From assembly GCA_016650045.1 (NCBI GenBank), contig JAENWK010000011.1, positions 1 through 38,189 on the forward strand: a stretch of 38,189 nt of DNA, written 5' to 3'. The position numbers and the translations under genes are program-made. Source of the stretch: Eubacteriaceae bacterium. GTDB taxonomy: Bacteria > Bacillota > Clostridia > Eubacteriales > Eubacteriaceae. The first letter of the stretch is position 1. Every line of letters begins with the position of its first letter. Under the pieces are notes generated by a model that worked only from the letters and a program-made list of their open reading frames with translations, was not told the origin of the DNA and ran no database searches. Of the stretch, positions 1 through 32,174 are shown piece after piece.

Positions 1-104
1 CTTTTGAACGATACGTAAATAAACAGTCCCATCGAAGTGATCTGCCTGGCATCATCTTCTGATGATTGCTTTGATCCCGTGAAACCGTTTTACTGCTTCT
101 TAAT

Positions 105-11508: not shown

Positions 11509-12867
11509 TTAAGCATATCCGTCTGGACCGTAGTCATCTTCACCAAATCCTACTGCCAAATCGTTAAATTTCGTATATTCAGGGATCCATGCCAGCTTAA
11601 TGGTTCCGGTGGGACCATTACGTTGTTTGGCAATGTTCACTTCTGCAATGTTTTTTAATTCCGGGTTTTTATCATAATAAAACTCTCTAAAAAGCAGCAT
11701 GACCACATCGGCATCCTGCTCAATGGAACCTGACTCACGTAAATCCGACATGACGGGATGATGATCAGCTCTGGCATCCGGTGCGCGACTGAGCTGGGAT
11801 AATGCAATAACAGGCGCTTTCATTTCTCGGGCCAGGGCTTTCAGCCCACGGGACATTTCAGAAATTTCATTTTGCCGGTTTTCGGATTTTCCACCGCCAC
11901 CCATAAGCTGGATATAGTCAATGACAATGAGATCCAGGGCCTTCTCTGTTTTTAAACGCCGACACTTGGATCGCACCTCAGAAATGGTAATTCCCGCTGT
12001 ATCATCAATGAAAATATCTGCGCCATAAAGTGTATTGTATCCCACTACCAGGCGTTCCCAGTCTTCTTTGGTTAAATTCCCGGTTCGAACATTGTTGCTG
12101 TCCACCAGGGACGTGGCACAAAGCATACGCTGAACCAACTGTTCCTTGGACATTTCCAAACTAAAAATGGCCACCGAACAATTGTCTTTAACCGCTGCAT
12201 TCTGAGCAATATTCAGGGCAAAGGCTGTTTTACCCATAGATGGTCGTGCAGCCACAATGATAAGATCTGAATCCTGCAAACCTGATGTAATATGGTTGAG
12301 CTCGGCAAATCCGGTTTCAACACCTGTAAGTTTTCCTTTATTGCTTTCAATGGCCTCGATTTGGGAAAGGGTGGTACCCAGAGTTTCCTGAATTCCTTCG
12401 AAATCCCCGGTACGACGACCTTGGGAGACTTTAAATATTTCCTGTTCGGCTCTTTCAATGACATCCCCAACCTTATCGTACTGGCCATAGCTTTCCTCTA
12501 AGATTTGGGTAGCGGTATGAATGAGGCTTCGAATCACTGCTTTTTCATGGACGATCTGACAATATTCAAGGTAGTTTCTGTGAATTGGCACCATTTCAAT
12601 AAGTTCACTGAGATAGCCAATCCCTCCAATTTTATCAAGCACACCATGATTTCTCAGAGAGTCCATGAGCGTCACTGTATCAATGGGTTTTCGCTCATTA
12701 TGAAGATCCAGCATACTTTTATAAATCTCACGATGTGCCCCTCGATAAAAATCATCCGGGGATAAAAACTCTTCTGCCCGACCAATATTGGACTCATCCA
12801 TGAGGATGGCACCTAAAACCGACTGCTCTGCCTCGATATTATGGGGGGGGACCTTTGGATTCATCAC
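11509..12867 (-). CDS. dnaB: replicative DNA helicase
   Basis: A 452-residue DnaB (called DnaC in Bacillus), the hexameric 5'-3' helicase at the fork. The N-terminal scaffold spans about 1-150, followed by the RecA-like motor with Walker A ARPSMGKT (207-214), Walker B LDLIVIDYIQLM, and the arginine finger region near RGLKALARE. Codons 1 and 2 are GTG and ATG; AGGAG in the end of rplI lies 8 bases from the GTG and 11 from the ATG, so either may start (ATG alternative at 12864). The ribosome binding site overlaps the rplI stop codon. The gdpP-rplI-dnaB order is the one found in Bacillus. Confidence 0.96.
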   Translation of the reverse strand: MMNPKVPPHNIEAEQSVLGAILMDESNIGRAEEFLSPDDFYRGAHREIYKSMLDLHNERKPIDTVTLMDSLRNHGVLDKIGGIGYLSELIEMVPIHRNYLEYCQIVHEKAVIRSLIHTATQILEESYGQYDKVGDVIERAEQEIFKVSQGRRTGDFEGIQETLGTTLSQIEAIESNKGKLTGVETGFAELNHITSGLQDSDLIIVAARPSMGKTAFALNIAQNAAVKDNCSVAIFSLEMSKEQLVQRMLCATSLVDSNNVRTGNLTKEDWERLVVGYNTLYGADIFIDDTAGITISEVRSKCRRLKTEKALDLIVIDYIQLMGGGGKSENRQNEISEMSRGLKALAREMKAPVIALSQLSRAPDARADHHPVMSDLRESGSIEQDADVVMLLFREFYYDKNPELKNIAEVNIAKQRNGPTGTIKLAWIPEYTKFNDLAVGFGEDDYGPDGYA

Positions 12868-16695: not shown

Positions 16696-17136
16696 TTAAA
16701 AGGGTACATCATCATCATCAGCCATCAGATGGAAATCTTCATCCAATCCCATTGCTGACATATTGTTATCTGCTCGAGGTGCCGGAGCTTGTTGGTATCC
16801 ACCGGTGGATTCTTTCCGGTTCGCTGAAGACAAGAATGTAATTTCATCTGCAACAACTTCCGTCACATAGCGTTTTTGGCCATCTTGTGCATCGTAATTT
16901 CTAACCTGCAGTCGTCCTGAAGCGCCGATTTGGCTGCCTTTTGACAAATATTGACCTGCAAGTTCTGCCTGTTTTCCCCATACTACAATAGGTACAAAAT
17001 CAGTTTCTTTTTGACCATCTTTGTTTTTAAAACGACGGTCAACAGCCAGGGTAAAAGTAGCTACCGCTTTTCCTGTAGTGGTGTTTTTCACTTCAGGATC
17101 CCTGGTTAGTCTTCCTACTAAAATTACTTTATTCAC
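16696..17136 (-). CDS. ssb: single-stranded DNA-binding protein
   Basis: A 146-residue SSB with an N-terminal OB fold (about 1-105; MNKVILVGRLTRDPEV opening) and a disordered linker ending in the acidic tip DDDVPF, which docks partner proteins such as PriA and RecG. Translation begins at GTG (17136). A purine-rich AGGGGGT lies 6 bases upstream. It is encoded between rpsF and rpsR, the usual arrangement in Firmicutes. Confidence 0.97.
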   Translation of the reverse strand: MNKVILVGRLTRDPEVKNTTTGKAVATFTLAVDRRFKNKDGQKETDFVPIVVWGKQAELAGQYLSKGSQIGASGRLQVRNYDAQDGQKRYVTEVVADEITFLSSANRKESTGGYQQAPAPRADNNMSAMGLDEDFHLMADDDDVPF

Positions 17137-20609: not shown

Positions 20610-21503
20610 CTATTCCTTTTTTTCATAGCCTAAAAGGGCTAAAATTCGATCTAATTCTTCAAGCGAAAAATAGGAAAGTTCTATTTTCCCACTTTTTCCA
20701 CGGCTGCTAAAATTGACCTTTGTGGCAAATATTTTTTCTAATGCATCTTTTATTTCCATGACATAAGCCGTTGTGTCAATTTTTTTCTTCTGTAAAGGTG
20801 CAACGATACCTTCAATTTGAAGTTTTTTAATGCGCTTTTCAGTTTCTCGGACACTTAAACCTTTTTCAATAATTTCTTTGGAAAAAGCCTCCATTTTTTC
20901 CGCCTCTTCCATAATAAGAATTGCTCTGGCATGACCTGAACTAATTCTACCCTGGGCAACATCATTTTGAACAGATTCCGGTAGTTTTAATAGTCTCAAT
21001 GTATTTGCCACTGCGGTGCGGCTTTTCCCAATGCGAATACCAATCTCGCCCTGGGTAAGATTAAAGTTACTCATTAAACCTTCATAGGCAAGGGCTTCTT
21101 CAATACTGTTGAGATTTTCTCTTTGAACATTTTCGATTAATGCAATTTCCAAAACCTCTTCAGCTGGAAGATCTCGTACAATGACCGGAACTTCTTTGAG
21201 TCCCACAATATTCGCAGCACGCCAGCGTCTTTCCCCAGCGATAATAGTATACCCTTTGCCATCAGGTTTCACAACTATGGGTTGAATAATCCCATGTTCC
21301 CTAATAGAAGCCCCCAGTTCTTCAAGCTTTCCACGATCAAAACTTTTACGGGGCTGCTCAGGATTAGGCCGAATATTGCTTGTTTTGACGTAAAAGACCA
21401 ATTTTTCCACATCCACCTTTAGATCCTCACCTTCGGCAGACAAAATCACCTCATCTGGGATCAAAGCTCTAAGGCCTTTTCCTAAACCTGTATTTTTCAC
21501 CAT
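20610..21503 (-). CDS. parB: chromosome partitioning protein ParB (Spo0J)
   Basis: A 297-residue ParB, a CTP-dependent clamp that loads on parS and spreads. The N-terminal CTPase region has the boxes EQPRKSF (about 50), GIIQPIVV, and GERRWRAANIVG (about 95-106). The helix-turn-helix (about 148-170, LTQGEIGIRIGKSRTAVANTLRLL) reads parS, and a C-terminal domain dimerises. It starts 2 bases past parA. A matching parS site lies at 22339-22354. Confidence 0.96.
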   Translation of the reverse strand: MVKNTGLGKGLRALIPDEVILSAEGEDLKVDVEKLVFYVKTSNIRPNPEQPRKSFDRGKLEELGASIREHGIIQPIVVKPDGKGYTIIAGERRWRAANIVGLKEVPVIVRDLPAEEVLEIALIENVQRENLNSIEEALAYEGLMSNFNLTQGEIGIRIGKSRTAVANTLRLLKLPESVQNDVAQGRISSGHARAILIMEEAEKMEAFSKEIIEKGLSVRETEKRIKKLQIEGIVAPLQKKKIDTTAYVMEIKDALEKIFATKVNFSSRGKSGKIELSYFSLEELDRILALLGYEKKE

Positions 21504-21505
21504 TT

Positions 21506-22270
21506 TTACTCCTGTCTTTGTATAAACTCTTTTGCCAAGGCAAGATACGCTTTTGATCCTTTTGATGCGTTTGCATATTCGAAAATGGTTTGCCCATAGC
21601 TTGGAGCTTCTGCCAATCTTATATTTCTTGGAATCATGGTCTCATACACCTTTTCTTTGAAAAAATCCACAACCTCATCAACGACTTGATTCGATAAATT
21701 GGTACGGCTGTCAAACATGGTCATAACCACGCCTTCAATTTCCAGATGAGGGTTAAGACCCTGTTTCACCAAGCTAATGGTATTCATTAGCTGCCCTACG
21801 CCTTCAAGGGCATAATACTCGCATTGAATAGGGATTAATACGGTGTCTGTTATGGCTAAGGCATTAATCGTTAATAACCCCAGAGAGGGTGGGCAGTCAA
21901 TAAAAATAAAATCATAATATTTTTCAACATCTTTTAAAACGTTTTTTAAACGAAGTTCTCTTTGGGGTAAATTTGTTAATTCAATTTCTGCCCCAGCCAA
22001 ATCCGGATTGGAAGGAAGGATATGGAGCTTTTCAAAGGTCGTTGTTAAGATAATCTCTTTTAAACTGTCTCCATGAATAATGCCGTCATAAACACTTTTT
22101 TCAAGATTATATTTATCAATGCCAAATCCGCTGCTGGTATTCCCCTGGGGATCAATATCTATTACAAGTACTCGGTATCCTTCCATGCTCAGGGCAGTGG
22201 TTAAGTTGATCGTTGTGGTTGTTTTACCAACCCCACCTTTTTGATTGAATACCGCCACAATTTTTGCCAT
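21506..22270 (-). CDS. parA: chromosome partitioning ATPase ParA (Soj)
   Basis: A 254-residue Soj-type ATPase that drives segregation with ParB and controls DnaA. The deviant Walker A KGGVGKTTTT is at residues 10-19, and the DNA-binding surface and dimer motifs follow (DIDPQGNTSSGFG). The start is unambiguous, with an AAGGAG site upstream. No strong promoter is visible in the 154-base gap before it, so it may be read with the mnm-rsmG genes. Confidence 0.96.
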   Translation of the reverse strand: MAKIVAVFNQKGGVGKTTTTINLTTALSMEGYRVLVIDIDPQGNTSSGFGIDKYNLEKSVYDGIIHGDSLKEIILTTTFEKLHILPSNPDLAGAEIELTNLPQRELRLKNVLKDVEKYYDFIFIDCPPSLGLLTINALAITDTVLIPIQCEYYALEGVGQLMNTISLVKQGLNPHLEIEGVVMTMFDSRTNLSNQVVDEVVDFFKEKVYETMIPRNIRLAEAPSYGQTIFEYANASKGSKAYLALAKEFIQRQE

Positions 22271-29029: not shown

Positions 29030-29095
29030 TTCGACACCCCCTGACTTACATTTTATCTTCATTCGTTTATAAGTTTATAATACTTTTACCCTAGG

Positions 29096-29124
29096 ATTAT
29101 ATAATCTTGGCTATTTTCTGTCAA
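29096..29124 (-). promoter_or_regulatory. rpmH promoter, perfect consensus
   Basis: TTGACA (29119-29124) and TATAAT (29096-29101) on the - strand with exactly 17 bases between. It is the only promoter in the window that fully matches consensus, consistent with strong ribosomal protein expression. Confidence 0.92.
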
Positions 29125-29190
29125 GATATATTATTATTCTCTTAAACAATGATCCAGAATTCCCATTTTTTAGGTTTATTCTATTTTTGA

Positions 29191-29219
29191 TTGAATGCTT
29201 GTCCACAATTTGTTATACT
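29191..29219 (+). promoter_or_regulatory. dnaA promoter P1 overlapped by a DnaA box
   Basis: TTGAAT (29191-29196) and TATACT (29214-29219) with 17-base spacing and TGT before the -10 (extended). A DnaA box TTGTCCACA (29199-29207) lies between -35 and -10, so DnaA binding should repress its own gene. A candidate second promoter, TTGATT (29393-29398) and TAAAAT (29416-29421) at 17 bases, lies nearer the gene. Confidence 0.65.
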
Positions 29220-29456
29220 GGTATCACCGGATTGTGGACAAATGTTGATATTTAATCAATTAATCCACAAAATATCTTAATTTGTGGATTAATTGGGGAT
29301 AACCTGTATGCATTTTTTAATACTCGCATCTTTGTTGGGTTTTTTCTATGGATAACTTTTTTTAATTATCAACAGATATTCCAATTATTCCCTTGATTTA
29401 TTTACCTATTCACATTAAAATAGATATTCTGTGTATAAATCTCGGATTTATCCACA
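29199..29456. other. oriC: oriC upstream DnaA-box cluster
   Basis: The rpmH-dnaA gap (29030-29495) holds about ten DnaA boxes. Perfect matches to TTATNCACA are at 29448-29456 (+) and 29430-29438 (-). One-mismatch boxes are at 29199-29207, 29233-29241 (-), 29261-29269, 29283-29291 (-), 29294-29302 (-), 29347-29355 (-), 29366-29374 and 29406-29414. The boxes are arranged partly as inverted pairs. This is the incA/incB-like half of a bipartite origin. The remaining sequence is AT-rich with no gene. Confidence 0.9.
29257..29295. repeat. 15-base perfect inverted repeat carrying two DnaA boxes
   Basis: Arms CAATTAATCCACAAA (29257-29271) and TTTGTGGATTAATTG (29281-29295), with a 9-base spacer. Each arm contains a DnaA box, TAATCCACA and its reverse. 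If transcription starts near 29226 it would lie in the dnaA mRNA leader as a hairpin. No T-run follows, so it is not a terminator. Confidence 0.9.
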
Positions 29457-29495
29457 GCGACATTCTTAAATTTAGGAAACTGGAGGTTCAATTTA

Positions 29496-30896: not shown

Positions 30897-31020
30897 TTAT
30901 CCACAGCTTATCCTCTTGTGAAAATCAAGTTTTTTGATTGCATGAACAGCTTTGAGGAGTTATCCACACTGTCCACACCCCCTACTACTAATACTACTAT
31001 TAATTATATATAGTATTATA
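30897..31020 (+). other. oriC: DNA unwinding element: DnaA boxes, GC patch and DnaA-trios
   Basis: In the 210-base dnaA-dnaN gap, perfect DnaA boxes TTATCCACA lie at 30897-30905 and 30960-30968. A C-rich spacer (30977-30982) and then seven triplets (30982-31002: CTA, CTA, CTA, ATA, CTA, CTA, TTA) follow, then AT-only DNA (31003-31020). Read on the other strand the triplets are 3'-GAT/AAT-5', the DnaA-trio motif known from B. subtilis, where DnaA opens the duplex. This matches the basal unwinding system layout. Confidence 0.85.
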
Positions 31021-31061
31021 ACTAAAGGGGTGTTCCCAAATTTAAAAGTTGAGGTATTTTT

Positions 31062-32174
31062 ATGAAATTTAATTGTTCAAAAGAAAGTTTAATGGGGGCT
31101 TTAAATATAGCCCAAAAAGCAGTATCTTCAAAAACAACACTCCCGATTCTTGAAGGAATCTTTTTTAGTGTTAAAAACAACAACTTATTATTAAGAAGTA
31201 CCGATTTAGAAATTGGTGTTGAGATTAATATTCCCGCCACTGTGGAAAACGAAGGAGAAATCGTCCTTTCTTCTGCCATTACTGGTGAACTCATTCGAAA
31301 GATGTCAGGTTCTGATGTTTTTTTTGAAAGTGATGACCATAATCAAATGAAGATTGAATGTCTGTTGTCAAACTTTACATTAAAAGGTTTGGCCACCGAT
31401 GAATTTCCAGCTTTTCCTGAAATCATTGAGGATCATATCTTTTCCATAGAATCCTCGGTTCTGAGAGAATTGATCAAAGGAACCTTATTTTCAGTGGCAA
31501 CCAATGAAAATATTCCGGTCCTCACCGGGGTTAAAATTGAGCTCCAGGGTAATGATATCAATCTTATTGCTCTAGATGGTTATCGTCTCGCCCTTCGCTC
31601 AGGAAAAATAAAAGAAAGTCTTGAAGAAGATCTCAGTGTGATTATTCCTTCAAAATCCTTATTTGAAATTAATAAGGTTTTAGCAAACTATTCGGGAGAA
31701 GTCATTGTCAAGTTTTCGAAAAACCAAATATTTTTTCAAATGGAAAATACTCAATTTACTTCTAGGCTTCTTGAAGGGGATTTTATTAATTACAAACAAA
31801 TTATACCTGTTGAAAAAACAACCCAAGTTCGTATCAATCGTCGTTTGCTGTTGGAAAGCAGCGAACGGGCGGCGCTGTTAGCCAGGGAAGGAAAAAATAA
31901 CCTGATTAAAATGGATTTCAATCAGGATCAATTGATTTTAACTTCAAATGCAGATATTGGTGATGTTTTTGAAATAATCCCCATTGTTAATTGTGGAGAG
32001 TCACTAAAAATTGCGTTTAACTCAAAATTTTTAATTGATGCCCTGCGTGTTATTGATGGTGAAGATTTTGTTATGGATATGACCACATCCGTTGGCCCGG
32101 GGGTACTTCTTCCTGCCGAAGGAAATGATTTTATCTACCTTATTTTACCTGTTCGAGTTGCCGAAGAAAATTAA
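31062..32174 (+). CDS. dnaN: DNA polymerase III sliding clamp (beta subunit)
   Basis: A 370-residue beta clamp, the ring that tethers polymerase to DNA, made of three repeated folds of about 120 residues. The opening MKFNCSKESLMGALNIAQKAV and the final LPVRV motif are standard. A GAGGT ribosome binding site is upstream. It follows dnaA and the unwinding element and ends at a strong hairpin. Confidence 0.97.
   Translation: MKFNCSKESLMGALNIAQKAVSSKTTLPILEGIFFSVKNNNLLLRSTDLEIGVEINIPATVENEGEIVLSSAITGELIRKMSGSDVFFESDDHNQMKIECLLSNFTLKGLATDEFPAFPEIIEDHIFSIESSVLRELIKGTLFSVATNENIPVLTGVKIELQGNDINLIALDGYRLALRSGKIKESLEEDLSVIIPSKSLFEINKVLANYSGEVIVKFSKNQIFFQMENTQFTSRLLEGDFINYKQIIPVEKTTQVRINRRLLLESSERAALLAREGKNNLIKMDFNQDQLILTSNADIGDVFEIIPIVNCGESLKIAFNSKFLIDALRVIDGEDFVMDMTTSVGPGVLLPAEGNDFIYLILPVRVAEEN

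Follow-up and report, generated by a model that had tools for sequence, protein, structure and literature searches.

The window, that is the whole stretch of 38,189 nucleotides analysed, stems from a member of a genus which may be Acetobacterium. The gene order rpmH-dnaA-dnaN is kept, dnaA and dnaN being identified by Pfam and rpmH by eye from its translation. Clusters of DnaA boxes flank dnaA on both sides, the layout of a bipartite origin, and the gap separating dnaA from dnaN hosts the two box pairs, spacer and trios listed in Table 1, followed by AT-rich DNA up to about 31025. Across the trios the plus strand reads CTA CTA CTA ATA CTA CTA TTA. Perfect DnaA boxes are found three times in the window (at 29448, 30897 and 30960), and boxes with at most one mismatch are in excess of the number found in shuffled sequences (28 versus 13.2, sd 3.4). 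The contig carrying the origin also encodes the DnaB replicative helicase, SSB and ParB/ParA (11509-12867, 16696-17136 and 20610-22270, all on the minus strand), genes usually met in the neighbourhood of origins; their transcription is directed away from the origin.

Table 1. Features of the dnaA region in the window (positions from the first letter of the window)
Feature	Position	Strand	Remarks
Distal DnaA box TTATCCACA	30897-30905	+	0 mismatches; 63 bp (6.0 helical turns) 5' of the proximal box
Distal pair, second box TTATCCTCT	30908-30916	+	7/9 matches; 11-bp period; 52 bp (5.0 turns) 5' of the proximal box
Proximal DnaA box TTATCCACA	30960-30968	+	0 mismatches; place of B. subtilis box #6
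Proximal DnaA box CTGTCCACA	30969-30977	+	7/9 matches; 9-bp period; place of B. subtilis box #7
GC spacer CCCC	30978-30981	+	Direct reading and genus comparison
Seven DnaA-trios	30982-31002	-	Trio strand is minus, 3'-GAT GAT GAT TAT GAT GAT AAT-5'
Predicted unwinding element, least stable 40-mer of the window	30986-31025		Nearest-neighbour energy
dnaA, 451 aa	29496-30851	+	Pfam domains DnaA_N, Bac_DnaA, Bac_DnaA_C
dnaN, 370 aa, beta clamp	31062-32174	+	Pfam
Upstream DnaA-box cluster (oriC1)	29199-29456	both	Nine boxes with at most one mismatch

A BUS is recognized by a DnaA box, most often in a tandem pair, placed at most 16 bp (PMC8287927) from at least three consecutive 3'-NAN-5' trios. In the window the tandem boxes at 30960-30977 have 0 and 2 mismatches, the better of the two is 13 bp away from the trios, and the latter are seven in frame, nine under the loosest rule. 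The fourth trio, ATA (3'-TAT-5'), fits the motif at the middle and last bases, and deviates at the first. The run made of A and T only covers 30998-31012, being interrupted by a G at 31013 and a C at 31022. A preliminary description of the locus had listed boxes, C-rich spacer, seven trios and AT-only DNA in this succession; order and coordinates were right, but the fourth trio is irregular and the AT-only DNA is limited to the 15 residues just mentioned. The heptamer ACACCCC (30975-30981) and its inverted copy GGGGTGT (31027-31033) flank trios and AT-rich DNA. The CCCC...GGGG core of this inverted repeat recurs in many members of the genus, and is absent from L118, L126 and L127; the repeat was rejected as an essential border element, as these three loci have no right arm.

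The window was scanned with a hand-made trio matrix modelled on the published motif. A score of 26.5 was obtained at exactly 30982-31002, the runners-up in the window had 11.2 (plus strand) and 10.7 (minus strand), and the top score among 100 windows simulated by an order-2 Markov model was 14.5. Two boxes with a period of 8 or 9, a 4-bp spacer and trios were found in combination once on the plus strand of the window, never on the minus strand, and never in the 100 Markov windows (one strand each). By nearest-neighbour energy, the lowest-stability 25-mer of the window (30995-31019) and the lowest 40-mer (30986-31025) fall at the same place. Direct reading, tract score and low stability all bear out the earlier claim that a complete DnaA-trio unwinding element is located between dnaA and dnaN.

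Conservation of the tract was monitored in 39 relatives from the family, in addition to the window's own genome. A full-length, or nearly full-length, dnaA locus was obtained from 16 of 18 relatives in the genus (the exceptions, G007 and G008, are 83% and 81% complete) and from 20 of 21 other family members, G020 providing fragments only. With a threshold of 10.8, corresponding to the 95th percentile of a reversed-sequence control, trio tracts were detected in the window, in all the other genus loci (16/16), in 18/20 of the other family loci, L140 and L145 being under the threshold, and in L148 (1/1), an additional distant locus of G010; trio conservation in relatives, one of the checks initially proposed, thus turned out favourably. 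Overall, the tract is above threshold in 188 of 227 loci and below it in 39. By sample, the figures are 58/80 for the named loci, many of which are metagenome assemblies, several from other phyla; 56/69 for a phylum sample chosen from 297 genomes with a match (best scorers, then mostly one per family); and 38/40 for a selection of loci from the class and order searches, the family loci and the window making up the rest. A dnaN gene was not found in 9 of 226 fetched loci, and 500 bases 3' of dnaA were scanned in these.

Within the 17 genus loci the middle T and the last A of trios 1-6 are invariant. Trio 4 is ATA in four of them, the window included, so that the irregularity seen in the window is a first-base change which recurs and is tolerated. 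The spacer is CCCC in 14 loci, GCCC in two and TCCC in one. Most genus members (the window at 30908-30916, L112-L117 and L119-L125) have a weak TTATCCCCT/C-like site, retained though off consensus, as the near box of their distal pair. A second, distant dnaA gene, 44% identical and followed by dnaN and by its own trio tract CTACTACTACTGCTA, was found in one relative (L148, G010:C184:398-1663); it may be either a contaminant contig or a true second dnaA copy of G010.

The structure nearest by sequence to the DnaA protein of the window is 8btg, the B. subtilis DnaA-BUS complex. Residues reported to hold the trio bases in B. subtilis are N187, I190, I193, R202 and E228 (PMC10721633), and R264 is the arginine finger (PMC8287927). 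Equivalents of these residues, which count among the marks of a BUS, are conserved in the window DnaA in 6/6 cases in the alignment to 8btg. Elsewhere in the genome, on contig C164, a DnaD-type gene (PF07261) adjoins a DnaI-like AAA+ gene.

Cumulative GC skew in the window is lowest at 30997, within the trios, but the minimum is flat, as positions at most 10 units from it span 30912-31601. The genome to which the window belongs is assembled as a 217-contig draft, and chromosome-wide skew was taken from G009, a complete genome of the same genus, in which 20 stretches of 20 kb were sampled. Skew is negative in 10/10 stretches from 450 kb to 2.27 Mb, positive in 9/9 on the other arm, and mixed (0.013) in the stretch with dnaA. 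In 1-kb steps, bins below 2366.7 kb are negative (9/9), those above are positive (10/11), and the dnaA/dnaN junction lies just above this point (dnaA 2367064-2368413, minus strand). The skew minimum is accordingly found in the gap 3' of dnaA, as in a bipartite origin, in the window and in one complete relative, at a resolution of about 1 kb, and the switch-point check suggested at the outset gave the predicted answer. At third positions dnaA has a negative GC skew in the window, in 16/16 genus loci and in 19/20 other family loci, which is expected if dnaA and dnaN lie on opposite sides of the start point. The value is higher in dnaN than in dnaA in the window (1/1), in 16/16 genus loci and in 16/20 other family loci; it is positive in dnaN in 0/1, 7/16 and 1/20, respectively, and dnaN skew was discarded as an independent marker because equivocal. 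On balance, the skew evidence fits a start point 3' of dnaA.

B. subtilis itself has boxes with an 8-bp period, and 12 bp from the proximal box to the trios. The sampled Bacillus-type loci share both values; in the window, the boxes abut at a 9-bp period and the distance is 13 bp. In the rest the window resembles the B. subtilis incC/BUS region, similarly located 3' of dnaA and made of two co-oriented boxes, a short GC spacer, trios and AT-rich DNA (PMC6669920, PMC8287927, PMC10721633), the same DnaA residues being in place. The capture of bases by DnaA (PMC10721633) and a DnaD recognition element, DRE (PMC10201434), have been described for this type of system. TnnT repeats like those of the DRE are present on the plus strand opposite the window trios, and are created by the trio periodicity itself; the DnaD-like protein encoded in the genome would be a candidate binder. 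Potential BUS have been predicted in 1755 of 2070 origins (85%), with a spacer most often of 13 bp (PMC8287927).

The distal boxes are differently placed in the two systems, at 52 and 63 bp in the window, and at 44 bp (box #3) in B. subtilis (PMC6669920). A distal box at 44 bp or more from box #6 is needed in B. subtilis, and function is reported to track helical phase for three turns (PMC6669920). Reverse-oriented boxes such as TGTGGATAG were noticed 5' of the proximal box in 25 loci (L006, L008, L009 and L014, among others), at 34-35 bp in 24 and at 36 bp in one. Eighteen of these loci belong to named Bacilli, none to the genus of the window; a reverse box at 34-35 bp, present in the 18 Bacilli loci, is missing in the window.

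In C. difficile the origin is bipartite and opens in the dnaA-dnaN gap (PMC7561715). Its oriC2 shares with the window the bipartite layout, the rpmH-dnaA-dnaN order and the trios, the sequence CTACTACTATTACTACTATGA being found ahead of the opening site (PMC7561715). Opening has been measured for the C. difficile oriC2, whereas the window site is known from sequence, and the named loci sampled do not include C. difficile. According to the same source, the clostridia examined keep this layout, which besides C. difficile covers six more predicted clostridial origins, one of them from another C. difficile strain (PMC7561715). The site is therefore of a standard, already described kind. In presenting it as an extension of the pattern to a likely acetogen, the preliminary description overstated its novelty; the nature of the host is plausible, because genes for a CdhC-type acetyl-CoA synthase and a formyl-THF synthetase are present in the genome.

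The site can be regarded, with a probability of about 0.94, as the predicted BUS of the chromosome origin, situated in oriC2, the downstream part of an origin with a bipartite layout. The reading is based on sequence, position, conservation, skew, calculated stability and DnaA residues. Support for the opening site initially predicted 3' of dnaA comes from the skew minimum, the skew switch in G009, the lowest duplex stability, conservation and DnaA residues; the bipartite origin holds as far as layout is concerned, with nine boxes 5' of dnaA and the gene order kept. By analogy with B. subtilis and C. difficile, DnaA-ATP would bind the two proximal boxes (30960-30977) through domain IV, and the oligomer would extend from there past CCCC and along the minus strand, each trio receiving one subunit. 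Trio bases held in pockets between DnaA subunits would cause the AT-rich DNA to open at about 30982-31025 and give access for helicase loading, which may proceed through the DnaD-like and DnaI-like proteins. The distal pair (30897-30916), lying on the same helical face, probably loops over, bringing more DnaA, and the box cluster 5' of dnaA may assist.

Opening in the upstream region (oriC1, 29040-29495), with the downstream tract as an accessory, is very improbable. The nine boxes with at most one mismatch, and the inclusion of 29066-29105 among the least stable 40-mers of the window, would suit it, but none of the best eight trio tracts listed per strand (lowest listed score 9.2) lies there, the least stable DNA is downstream, dnaA itself has a lagging-side skew, and opening in C. 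difficile was mapped to the downstream region (PMC7561715). A dnaN promoter or leader that resembles a BUS in appearance only is hardly credible, for the tract, although AT-rich and ending about 60 bp 5' of dnaN, retains in distant genomes a triplet periodicity at fixed distance from the tandem boxes, while the gap to dnaN is variable.

The spacing of the BUS elements was compared among genomes. One clear proximal box is found in 185 of the 188 tracts, and its distance from the first trio defines the register; in nine loci first classed as register 11 the trio start was extended upstream on re-reading. The register is 12 bp in 112 tracts, 13 bp in 62, 9 bp in 8 and other in 3. Register 13 prevails in the family of the window (34/35), while in other families of the same order 11/14 loci have register 12, two have register 9 and one is unscored; nine further order-mates have register 12 (seven) or 9 (two). 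In the order-mates L253, L255, L359 and L360 the two boxes appear to abut the trios without the 4-bp GC spacer (register 9), which may represent a naturally occurring form of the module. A 96-row DnaA tree, obtained by a quick method, requires no fewer than 14 changes of the register label, and well supported branches force at least nine of them. An indel in the DnaA linker as the origin of the 13-bp register was rejected, no gap being found between domains III and IV in the alignment to B. subtilis DnaA.

At register 13 the second box is clear of the first, and can be full consensus. Of the 17 genus loci, 6 have the better match in the second proximal box and 8 in the first, the two boxes being level in 3; L113, L115, L116 and L118 combine a perfect second box with a weak first one. 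The register proved of no use as a predictor of the stronger box, as the second is better in 2/30 representatives with register 13 and in 6/65 with register 12.

Upstream tandem pairs (score of at least 14 out of 18) were sought in 174 loci with register 12 or 13. They were found in 117 of these, in 30/55 representatives (less than 65% DnaA identity), and in 4/1100 loci with shuffled upstream DNA. Among these 117 loci the distance between near box and proximal box is 41-44 bp in 74, 51-55 in 26, 62-67 in 7, 73-75 in 4 and 84-87 in 4, with single cases at 34 and 248; most pairs are thus separated from the BUS by about 4, 5, 6, 7 or 8 turns of the helix. In the genus of the window the pair is at 52 bp rather than about 43, and the family has the 13-bp rather than the 12-bp register. 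Among the papers listed for comparative work on helical phase or box spacing, or for an Acetobacterium oriC, none describes this pattern in its title or abstract opening.

All p-values on phase treat loci as independent, though these are related. The nearest strong forward box, present in 38/55 representatives, is phased to the proximal box with a resultant of 0.69 at 10.5 bp (p about 1e-8). The corresponding phase score, 19.29, was reached by none of 20,000 uniform placements and by none of 315 permuted motifs at 7/9 matches, the best of which scored 19.06; at 8/9 only two permuted motifs had enough matches. Phasing of reverse-oriented boxes is weaker, with another best period, and is not claimed. 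Pairs outside the 4-turn class are in phase as well (18 of 57 representatives with a pair, V-test p = 2e-4; 11 distinct distances under 120 bp, p = 8e-4), L141, which has two equal pairs at 75 and 87, being entered with the latter. Related loci were also contrasted in 48 pairs, and the cosine of the shift averages 0.49, most shifts being near whole turns and a minority out of phase.

A phase test fixed beforehand was applied to new data. The first set comprised 73 loci, some from genomes already used: 52 have a usable module, 15 are less than 75% identical to used loci, and 9 of the 15 have a pair. All nine pairs are at 42-45 bp, none being shifted, and the nearest box is in phase (n = 10, p = 4e-4). 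The second set of 20 loci was picked afterwards from the order and class where shifted pairs occur, hence from groups already sampled and with the identity filter left off. It yielded 14 loci with a tract, 12 of them usable and 10 with a pair; four pairs are shifted (62, 63, 64 and 75 bp), all in phase (p = 0.016).

These data suggest that evolution may keep the neighbouring DnaA-box pair on one helical face. The distances (mostly about 43, 52-55, 62-67, 73-75 and 84-87 bp) are in line with the lower limit of 44 bp and with the phasing of engineered B. subtilis origins (PMC6669920), and the pattern fits the phasing measured in that species, though shared ancestry weakens it. The simplest account would be the B. 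subtilis one: proximal DnaA seeds the oligomer on the trios, and distal DnaA, looped over, needs the right face of the helix. A rule for the phylum can be put forward at even odds. The pair would move by about whole turns, about 4 to 8 and rarely fewer than 4; registers 12 and 13 would be the main states of the module, with nine or more switches between them; the lineage of the window would have taken both steps, the better proximal box passing from first to second in part of the genus.

Inheritance of the helical spacing from an ancestral tandem array of boxes, with no DNA loop keeping it, is a serious possibility, held at somewhat below even odds. Sites at 43/54 bp are widely shared and pairs have an 11-12 bp period, so that loss of one array box would mimic a one-turn shift. 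Shifts within the family of the window (52 to 64 to 75) are of 11-12 bp, like array steps, which counts against the phase rule and in favour of an array. L141 has two equally good pairs, at 75 and 87, and L364 has an array at 53, 64, 75, 86 and 106. The close score of the best permuted motif (19.06 versus 19.29), the first held-out set without shifted pairs, the mean cosine of 0.49 with its minority of out-of-phase shifts, and a weak phasing of the proximal box to the dnaA stop (p 0.036) and the dnaN start (p 0.02) all point the same way. Against an array, the shift from order-mate families (pair at 42-43) to the genus of the window is 9 bp relative to the proximal box, 10 relative to the trios, not 11; the quick DnaA tree carries at least 11 changes of turn class; shifted pairs are in phase both in the main data and in the second set (4/4); and upstream boxes have no such phase to the dnaA stop or the dnaN start (p 0.14 and 0.09).

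The predicted BUS narrows the likely start of replication in an acetogen-type genus to within about a hundred bp, which is of use for replicating plasmids and marker-frequency work. Through the comparison, one engineered B. subtilis result, the phased distal box, becomes a pattern that many natural origins can put to the test. Structural studies of the DnaA-BUS complex could draw on natural variants with register 12 or 13, and with the stronger box in first or second place. If the phase rule is true, natural origins would record a DNA loop so far resting on engineered B. subtilis origins.
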